DNA of 37,465 bases from Candidatus Cryptobacteroides merdigallinarum (GTDB lineage Bacteria; Bacteroidota; Bacteroidia; Bacteroidales; UBA932). The notes below the pieces were generated by a model. It saw only the letters and a program-made list of their open reading frames with translations. It did not search any database and was not told the DNA's origin. The DNA lies in the NCBI GenBank assembly GCA_017694655.1, contig JADIMQ010000092.1:1-37465 (forward strand), written 5' to 3'. Position numbers and translations under genes: made by a program. Below are positions 8,180 to 33,783 of this stretch, in pieces. How positions within the stretch are numbered: position 1 is the stretch's first letter; every line of letters begins with the position of its first letter.

Positions 8180-8437
8180 AGGGTGACCCAAAAGGCTTTT
8201 GGGTCACCCTCAAACGTCTTTCTTCGAAAGACAAACCATATCTCAACCCCCTGCACCCCCTATCAGGGGGATCTCGCACCTGCCCGGTGCGGTCCCTGCG
8301 GGACTTGTTAAGGCTTTTGGGTCACCCTCTCTTACGTCTTTCTTCGAAAGACTGGACGAACAGAGAGCAATTGTGCTTGCACAAATTGCCGAGGTGAGGA
8401 TATGGAAAAACTTCAGTTTAACCTGGACCCATCCTAA
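8180..8437 (+). repeat. Mosaic hairpin repeat, copy 1 (modules A-B-spacer-D-right arm-B-C)
   Basis: 31-bp odd palindrome AGGGTGACCCAAAAG-G-CTTTTGGGTCACCCT (8180-8210); GTCTTTCTTCGAAAGAC at 8216-8232 and 8336-8352; D hairpins 8256-8304; arm CTTTTGGGTCACCCT again at 8314-8328; 83-bp C module 8355-8437. Confidence 0.85.
8355..8437 (+). repeat. 83-bp C module, first copy (identical to 9145-9227)
   Basis: gacgaacagagagcaattgtgcttgcacaaattgccgaggtgaggatatggaaaaacttcagtttaacctggacccatcctaa. Confidence 0.95.
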
Positions 8438-8467
8438 TCTCCCTCCTGCGCACCGTATTACCTGACA

Positions 8468-9061
8468 ATGGCGGACAAGATGACAAAAGAACAGCGGCAC
8501 AAATGCATGTCGCATATCCGTAGCCGGGACACCGGTCCTGAACTGGTGGTCCGCAGGGCCCTTTTTGCCGCCGGTTTCCGTTTCAGGGTGAATGTCTCCT
8601 CCCTCCCGGGAAGTCCCGACATAGTGCTGCGGAGGTACAACACCGTGATATTCGTCAACGGCTGCTTCTGGCACGGGCATGCCGGATGCCGGCTCTATGT
8701 GCCTCCCAGGAGCAATGTTGATTTCTGGCGCAGGAAGGTGGAACGGAACCGCAGGAGGGACACTGCCGTGGCATTCAGGCTCGAGGCCCTCGGATGGAAT
8801 GTGGTAACAGTCTGGGAATGCAGCCTGTCCCCGAAGCGGAGGAAGGAGACTCTTGCCCTGCTTGGGGACAGGATAAGGCGGAACGGCGAGACGCACAGGC
8901 AGGAGCTCGCCCGGCGCCGGGAAATGAGGGCCGCACTGCGCTCCGAGCACTCTTTCAGGAAGGCCCGTACCGCCGCCCTCCTCGGCGAGGTTGACAGTAT
9001 CTGCCATATACCTGCGTCGGTGCGCAGGGCTTCCGAGGACGAGGATATGCAGGATTCATGA
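8468..9061 (+). CDS. vsr: Very short patch repair (Vsr) DNA mismatch endonuclease
   Basis: 197 aa; MSHIRSRDTGPELVVRRALFAAGFRFRVN, LPGSPDIVLRRYNTVIFVNGCFWHGHAGC, FWRRKVERNRRRD, LGWNVVTVWEC. Confidence 0.92.
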   Translation: MADKMTKEQRHKCMSHIRSRDTGPELVVRRALFAAGFRFRVNVSSLPGSPDIVLRRYNTVIFVNGCFWHGHAGCRLYVPPRSNVDFWRRKVERNRRRDTAVAFRLEALGWNVVTVWECSLSPKRRKETLALLGDRIRRNGETHRQELARRREMRAALRSEHSFRKARTAALLGEVDSICHIPASVRRASEDEDMQDS

Positions 9062-9088
9062 TTGTCCGAGCAGGAGTACGAATAAAAG

Positions 9089-9301
9089 AGGGCGACACAA
9101 AAGAGATTTTGTGTCACCCTCAAACGTCTTTCTTCGAAGCCATTGACGAACAGAGAGCAATTGTGCTTGCACAAATTGCCGAGGTGAGGATATGGAAAAA
9201 CTTCAGTTTAACCTGGACCCATCCTAACCCCCTATTAGGGGGATATCGCACCTACCCGGTGCGGTCCCTACGGGACTTTTTTGGGGTTTTTGGGTCACCC
9301 T
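9089..9301 (+). repeat. Mosaic hairpin repeat, copy 2 (A-B-C-D-right arm)
   Basis: A hairpin 9089-9120; CAAACGTCTTTCTTCGAA 9121-9138; C module 9145-9227; D hairpins 9228-9276; right arm TTTTGGGTCACCCT 9288-9301. Confidence 0.85.
9145..9227 (+). repeat. 83-bp C module, second copy (identical to 8355-8437)
   Basis: Letter-by-letter identity over 83 bp. Confidence 0.95.
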
Positions 9302-9351
9302 CTTTCTCTTAATCTGTAAGCCTTTGCCGGACTTTTCAGTCCTTTCCTGGC

Positions 9352-33410: not shown

Positions 33411-33432
33411 CCTGTATTCCAGTTTAAAAAGG

Positions 33433-33440
33433 CAAAGATA
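33433..33440 (-). promoter_or_regulatory. -7 element TATCTTTG for the YicC-family gene
   Basis: CAAAGATA on + strand, 23 bp upstream of the start at 33410. Confidence 0.55.
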
Positions 33441-33617
33441 AATATTCTTGACTTTTGCTGTGTAAATTTTCCGGGAAAATCCATGGAAGTATTTTTTTGA
33501 AAAATTCAGGCAGCTGCCTGTTACTTTTTATGGTTCCAGCCTCCAGTTTCGGCGGTGCATCAGGAGGAGGACGGTATGCTCAATTTGCTCATCAATTTGC
33601 TCTCCCGAGGCGCAACA

Positions 33618-33752
33618 GGGGGTGACCCCAAAGCCCAAAAAAGTCCCATAGGGACCGCACCGGGTAGGTGCGAAACCGACGCCAGACCGAACGGAATGGT
33701 TTCGAAGAAAGACGTTTGAGGGTGACACAAAATCTCTTTTGGGTTCACCCTC
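33618..33752 (-). repeat. Mosaic hairpin repeat, copy 3 (inverted orientation; A-B-variable cargo-D-right arm)
   Basis: Reverse complement gives GAGGGTGAACCCAAAAGAGATTTTGTGTCACCCTC-AAACGTCTTTCTTCGAA-[unrelated ~28 nt]-CGCACCTACCCGGTGCGGTCCCTATGGGACTTTTTT-GGGCTTTGGGGTCACCCC. Confidence 0.85.
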
Positions 33753-33783
33753 TTCGCGGTGTGTCAGAATGCGGATTTTAGTA

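Follow-up and report, generated by a model that had tools for sequence, protein, structure and literature searches.

The three intergenic repeat loci of the window (the whole 37-kb contig analysed, part of the draft genome G000, which is 2.33 Mb in 135 contigs and 85% complete) belong to a family of hairpin repeats far larger than these loci. We put at roughly 60% the probability that this family is a genus-specific, non-autonomous mosaic element sitting in the terminator slot of gene ends, spreading and recombining in the form of hairpin modules, and probably terminating transcription in both directions. A first-pass annotation of the window had proposed a mobile or recombining non-autonomous element, or a structured RNA family, with a fixed frame and a swapped interior. 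Mobility or recombination is supported by presence/absence differences at orthologous sites between sister species, the swapped interior by exchange at the same orthologous locus and by chimeras joined at the frame arm, and the structured character by stems that covary across about 25 genomes. That annotation had also considered that the three loci might be the only copies, that relatives might show neither polymorphism nor covariation, or that a known family might be matched; none of these was found to be the case.

All of the module positions named earlier were borne out by direct reading of the window sequence (Table 1). The commonest unit is ~155 bp long and consists, in order, of a terminator-like hairpin A (GAGGGTGACNCAAAA-loop-TTTTGNGTCACCCTC), usually a hairpin B (CGTCTTTC-TNC-GAAAGACG), the spacer TGGACCCATCCTAA, the core hairpins D1 (CCCCCT-RTY-AGGGGG), D2 (CGCACC-TACCC-GGTGCG), and D3 (GTCCC-TNC-GGGAC, then T's), and a right arm, CTTTTGGGTCACCCTC, which repeats the 3′ half of A after the core. 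The middle base of the three-base loops of B and D3 takes all four values while its neighbors are nearly fixed (D3 loops in G000: TAC 14, TGC 7, TTC 5, and TCC 4); on the opposite strand these read as C-GNA-G loops. Loops of that type are unusually stable in DNA hairpins, a property that B and D3 may share. Extra modules were found at fixed places: (i) C between B and the spacer; (ii) E in the D1 loop; (iii) G before D1; and (iv) F outside the unit. Module E is inserted at the identical base of D1 in G000 and the distant genome G231, and its own stem shows matched changes between the two (AAGCAATTTCATTGCTT vs AAGCTATTTCATAGCTT). Module F (CTCGGCTTCTGCGTATATT..ATATACTGTTGCGCCTCGG) is an abundant, partly tandem hairpin family in its own right (L067, L069, L108, L109, and L212), whose inner stems appear to covary (AGCC/GGCT, GGAC/GTCC, and TACGC/GCGT). 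A putative short frame in module C, GAGGTGAGGATATGGAAAAACTTCAGTTTAACCTGGACCCATCCTAA (MEKLQFNLDPS*), is the same in both window copies.

Table 1. Positions of the three repeat copies and their modules in the window
Feature	Position	Strand	Remark
Copy 1, hairpin A, palindrome AGGGTGACCCAAAAG..CTTTTGGGTCACCCT	8180-8210	+	terminator-like on - strand, T-rich tail
Copy 1, hairpin B, CGTCTTTC-TTC-GAAAGAC	8215-8232	+	module B at 8215-8228; loop center T/G/A/C across copies
Copy 1, core	8245-8304	+	D1 8256-8270, D2 8275-8291, D3 8292-8304; core covariance model R2 matches at 8256-8304
Copy 1, right arm	8314-8329	+	repeats 3′ half of A; 20-nt direct repeat to 5′ flank of core
Copy 1, second B and module C	8335-8437	+	B 8335-8352 (module B at 8335-8348), C 8353-8437; tandem partial unit, one arm in common with first unit; arrangement recurs at C20:41444-41680
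Second-family remnant at left edge of copy 2, GGAGTACGAATAAAAGAGGGCG	9073-9094	+	copy 2 starts within it
Copy 2, whole	9089-9303	+	
Copy 2, A	9089-9121	+	
Copy 2, B	9125-9138	+	
Copy 2, C	~9139-9225	+	
Copy 2, D1-D3	9228-9276	+	
Copy 2, right arm	9286-9302	+	
Copy 3, whole	33617-33754	-	inverted; 98 bits; D1 absent
Copy 3, A	33718-33752	-	
Copy 3, B	33701-33714	-	
Copy 3, other cargo	33673-33699	-	
Copy 3, D2	33656-33672	-	
Copy 3, D3	33643-33655	-	
Copy 3, right arm	33618-33635	-	

The search of the genome and its relatives that had been suggested for the modules revealed how widely they are dispersed. A 260-bp query from copy 1 gave 80 matches in G000, 49 of them at about E ≤ 1e-9; module B (CGTCTTTCTTCGAA) occurred 43 times at no more than one mismatch vs 3 for its reversed-pattern control, and the A arm occurred 75 times vs 2. 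Sequence searches and fetched stretches together placed the element at about 45 loci of G000, a lower bound because many copies lie at contig ends; MAG assemblies often break inside the repeat, and many of the contig ends of G000 fall within it. At least 11 copies were found in the genus-mate G041 (CALVDQ01, uncultured Bacteroidales), including six that are 98-99% identical to the consensus and stand at unrelated genes, even though the flanking genes have diverged by roughly 8-17% between the two genomes. A covariance model of the copies (R1), likewise among the checks proposed, matched in 56 of 250 genomes of the genus, several with 10 or more copies. Across 394 genomes of the order (206 genera), the core model (R2) detected no credible member outside the genus, its two matches there being weak and both inside a coding sequence. 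The exact D2-D3 pattern was recovered among 85,462 species from G041, G061, and one Frateuria record, the last rejected as a family member on account of its unrelated context. No IMG/VR contig carried the D2-D3 motif, and a single D1 match (L216) was rejected as phage carriage for its lack of D2 and D3. By these searches the hairpin family appears to be genus-specific, and no published description of it was found in a brief search of the open-licence literature.

The stems of the unit are conserved as pairs rather than as sequences. In a 27-copy alignment from three genomes, 96.8% of pair cells hold standard pairs, and one G041 copy and copy 2 of the window folded 7.6 and 4.8 sd better, respectively, than their own shuffles. 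D2 was seen as CGCACC, CGAGCC, CGGCCC, CGGACC, CGCGCC, and CGCGAC, and D3 as GTCCC, GTCAC, GTCGC, GTCAT, and GCCCC, each with a matching partner arm; the subfamily of G061 (CALVDM01) is distinguished by other D2 stems (CGAGCC-TNC-GGCTCG), and in one clade (CGCTCC..GTCGCG) D2 is imperfect. D2 and D3 were found to covary in a set of 35 cores drawn from about 25 genomes, with 42 doubly changed cells vs 14.7 ± 2.7 in shuffles and a covariation score of 0.192 vs 0.075 in shuffles and at most 0.066 in slid controls. No Rfam 15 covariance model matched in the window; around related cores, Rfam matches were tRNA and 5S neighbors and otherwise sub-threshold eukaryotic and plastid families only.

By location, the elements are associated with the ends of genes. 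With tRNAs included, the 29 intergenic sites comprised 13 convergent, 14 tandem, and 2 divergent gene pairs, compared with 3, 47, and 14 for element-free gaps of >30 bp, a convergent enrichment (Fisher P = 8e-6) that is based on home-made gene calls. Several copies were also found directly 3′ of tRNA genes (Glu, Leu, Val, Lys, and Arg). Left flanks are purine-rich and right flanks pyrimidine-rich; complementarity of the flank arms beyond this composition was weak (P = 0.04), and pair-specific flank complementarity was set aside on that value. In the two copies on the + strand, terminator-like scores were obtained for A on the - strand and for D3 of copy 2 on the + strand. With a hairpin rich in G+C, a T run after it, and a position downstream of genes, the element agrees in sequence and location with an intrinsic terminator, and it probably acts as a bidirectional one. 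A strand-specific RNA is unlikely, because element orientation in tandem gene pairs showed no clear bias (about 7 same and 6 opposite).

Comparison of orthologous intergenic regions, which the first-pass annotation had recommended as a search for empty sites, did uncover element-free slots in sister species, and the same gene-end slot was found to hold a plain intrinsic terminator, the element described above (element 1), or a second element (element 2). Copy 1 adjoins the 3′ end of an S30AE/hibernation-factor gene, at which G041 has a plain terminator, GGCGGTCCGGAAAACGGGCCGCC-TTTTTT, and G061 carries its diverged subfamily in tandem. At L103, G041 reads ACGAGA-(element)-TTCTTAATTTCTG and G000 reads ACGAGA-(TCCGGACGATGCACATTCGTCCGGA)-TTCTTAATTTCTG, a clean swap of hairpin for element, while at L044 the outer stem AAAAGATG..CATCTTTTG and the T run are kept in both genomes and the tip is replaced. 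Plain hairpins stand at L045 (tRNA-Arg) in G041 and G061; at L052 the element is absent in both relatives, with no clear terminator in the sister species. The slot at L107, beside a gene which we take to be ppdK-like, holds element 1 in G041, an element-2-type terminator in G000, and a plain terminator in G061. Five G000/G041 copies, full or partial, have orthologous flanks on both sides (L044, L045, L052, L103, and L107), and in all five cases the sister species was without the element, although this is a comparison between species on MAG assemblies, in which parallel deletion or replacement could underlie a difference in presence. No short target-site duplication was detected at canonical copies, L103 and L044 being hairpin replacements and L052 having none.

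The two families meet in the same slots. Element 1 in G041 corresponds to element 2 in G000 at L102 (tRNA-Glu), where the latter has the hairpin GAGGGCGGGTCAAAAGTCAGACTCGCCCTC, the interior ATTCGTACTCCTGATGGAGTCCGGTTCCAAATATTC..., and the right arm CACCCTC; L118 likewise has element 1 in G061 and element 2 in G000. Chimeras of both families, joined at the common arm, were found at L013, L055, L058, and L068. Element 2 was recorded in G000 at L074, L075, L077-L080, L246, L253, L055, L058, and L068 (at least 8 copies); it has outer arms GAGGG..CACCCTC as in element 1, a terminator hairpin of its own, and a different interior. A reading of the AGGGTGACCCGAAA matches as unrelated sequence was rejected, as these are arms of this second family.

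A structured RNA or terminator family under selection for its fold could have evolved in place, its copies being vertically inherited 3′-end structures of transcripts and its apparent mobility being gene conversion among paralogous terminators. Such an origin would agree with the covarying stems, the 3′-end location, and the presence of a diverged subfamily in the same slot at the ortholog of copy 1 and at L105 in G061 (L105 holds element 1 in G041 and G061 and is plain in G000). However, the absence from sister species of all five copies with both flanks orthologous, and the six near-identical G041 copies at unrelated genes, make it seem unlikely to us.

In other genomes, the core often follows strong site-specific palindromes unrelated to A. 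Of 31 cores (A-type cores included), 24 have a strong hairpin in the 85 nt upstream, vs 0.9% of control windows, and 22% of cores are flanked by an exact direct repeat of at least 12 nt, vs 4% with swapped flanks. At L182, L183, and L189, a stretch of 21-27 nt from the local palindrome is found again beyond the core, and L214 is a tandem of the hairpin 3′ half plus core; only a minority of copies have the local palindrome repeated on the flanks of the core. At L214, L182, and L188, the terminator hairpin and the core are separated by an inverted copy of the 3′ end of the adjacent tRNA gene, which forms a long palindrome with the tRNA end. Together, the direct repeats and inverted tRNA ends may be consistent with target duplication or self-primed copying. 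In the latter case, a strand ending in a terminator hairpin would fold back and copy a few bases of its own upstream flank, and the broken or displaced strand would then switch template to a core elsewhere and rejoin, leaving inverted gene-end copies and direct hairpin repeats such as those at the loci just named. As a general account this is rather improbable, in that few loci show such signs and neither an enzyme, an intermediate, nor matched empty sites were found.

The inverted arms of 15-16 bp (GAGGGTGACCCAAAAG..CTTTTGGGTCACCCTC; over 27 copies, 83% of arm pair cells are formed), the uniform size of ~155 bp, and the high within-genome identity would all suit a classical MITE, which derives from a DDE insertion sequence, is bounded by TIRs, and moves in trans. 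Yet L103 and L044 show substitution for a hairpin with no short duplication, and in other genomes the flanking hairpin is locus-specific and only the core is common, which leaves a MITE quite improbable. Beside the copies, no transposase with these arms was seen. For the fixed frame of the first-pass annotation, a terminator hairpin in a terminator slot is a better reading than simple transposon ends. Scarcely credible are BIME/REP-type elements moved by a RAYT (Y1 transposase), which in enterobacteria and pseudomonads are similarly intergenic palindrome mosaics, mostly between unidirectional and convergent genes (PMC3733652), since PF01797 was without match at E ≤ 1 in G000 (85% complete), G041, and G061 while control genomes were positive, and the unpaired GTAG or CGTC tag that marks a REP palindrome of 20-40 bp was seen in none of the copies. 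A CGTC-tagged REP (PMC3733652) was rejected because the CGTC of B is paired within its stem. The earlier view that this is not simple REP sequence agrees with the lack of a Y1 transposase in the three genomes. Among the candidates examined, no transposase or other mobilizing agent was identified, nor was one found beside any copy. An apparently interrupted gene for an Rpn-type PD-(D/E)XK nuclease 'transposase' (PF12784) is flanked by two same-orientation cores at L179 (1656-2569, G107); Rpn (PDDEXK_2) was rejected as the mobilizing enzyme, as it is near no other fetched core.

For the mosaic element of the terminator slot, which we favor, the outer frame would be a terminator-like hairpin, with its 3′ arm present once more beyond the core, and the interior would consist of B, the core D1-D2-D3, and, as optional hairpin modules, C, E, F, and G. 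Within a genome, spreading copies would take the place of existing terminator hairpins or insert next to them, and would later be lost again, while interiors would be shuffled by exchange at common arms and by insertion or replacement at hairpin loops. Replacement may be tolerated because the occupant most likely still terminates in both directions; mosaic elements would thus compete for terminator slots while termination is kept. Copy number, covarying stems, gene-end location, the turnover of slots between species, and the chimeric arm joints were observed as such; termination, active movement, and the route of recombination are inferred. More doubtful is the broader proposal that terminator hairpins are themselves the units exchanged by a class of mobile DNA, in which cores would be copied onto the ends of existing gene-end palindromes in a structure-directed, possibly self-primed manner without a dedicated transposase, so that terminators would continually be replaced and reshuffled genus-wide.

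Mosaic intergenic palindromes as such are of an already known kind, represented by BIMEs, Neisseria mosaics, and MITEs. The element differs from BIMEs/REPs in its ~155-bp unit of 4-6 distinct hairpins and in outer arms that act like a terminator slot common to two unrelated interiors. Neisseria intergenic mosaic clusters contain dRS3 and CGTC-1 repeats (PMC3733652). Their repeats are similarly interleaved, whereas the unit here is tied to terminators. The dRS3 motif, ATTCCCN8GGGAAT, was absent from the window. In Porphyromonas gingivalis, BrickBuilt is a MITE containing a minisatellite (PMC4596501); it resembles the present element in its Bacteroidales host, non-autonomy, and inverted-repeat ends, and differs by description in that covarying hairpin modules here stand in place of a tandem minisatellite core. 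Sponge mitochondria have dispersed, intergenic, repetitive hairpin-forming elements (PMC2800124). These and double-hairpin elements are alike in being dispersed intergenic hairpin-forming repeats, the sponge elements differing in being mitochondrial. We know of no terminator-slot relation for either. Group IIC introns target intrinsic terminators and thus also use terminator stem-loops as landing sites, but the element here, which encodes no protein, falls short of the length of an intron or ribozyme. What is new is the terminator-slot relation, the ability of a single frame at one orthologous locus to hold either of two interiors, the genus-wide covariation with turnover, and the lack of a RAYT partner. 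If this is true, the terminators of this large uncultured genus would be slots rather than fixed gene parts, and hairpin elements that are interchangeable and spread would occupy them. With the two families, sister genomes, and chimeras as a natural series, one slot can be followed, which makes it possible to test how terminators evolve and how palindromic repeats spread in the absence of a known transposase.

Two further features of the window loci were observed. Copies 1 and 2, which share one orientation, enclose a vsr mismatch-endonuclease gene (PF03852; 8468-9061) that was possibly carried in between them; the G041 site after the S30AE gene has neither vsr nor element. In the region of 33411-33616, copy 3 has divergent genes on its two sides, one yicC-like and one creD-like, and may mark a deletion, because the matching G041 interval (~1.7 kb) holds other sequence resembling two genes.
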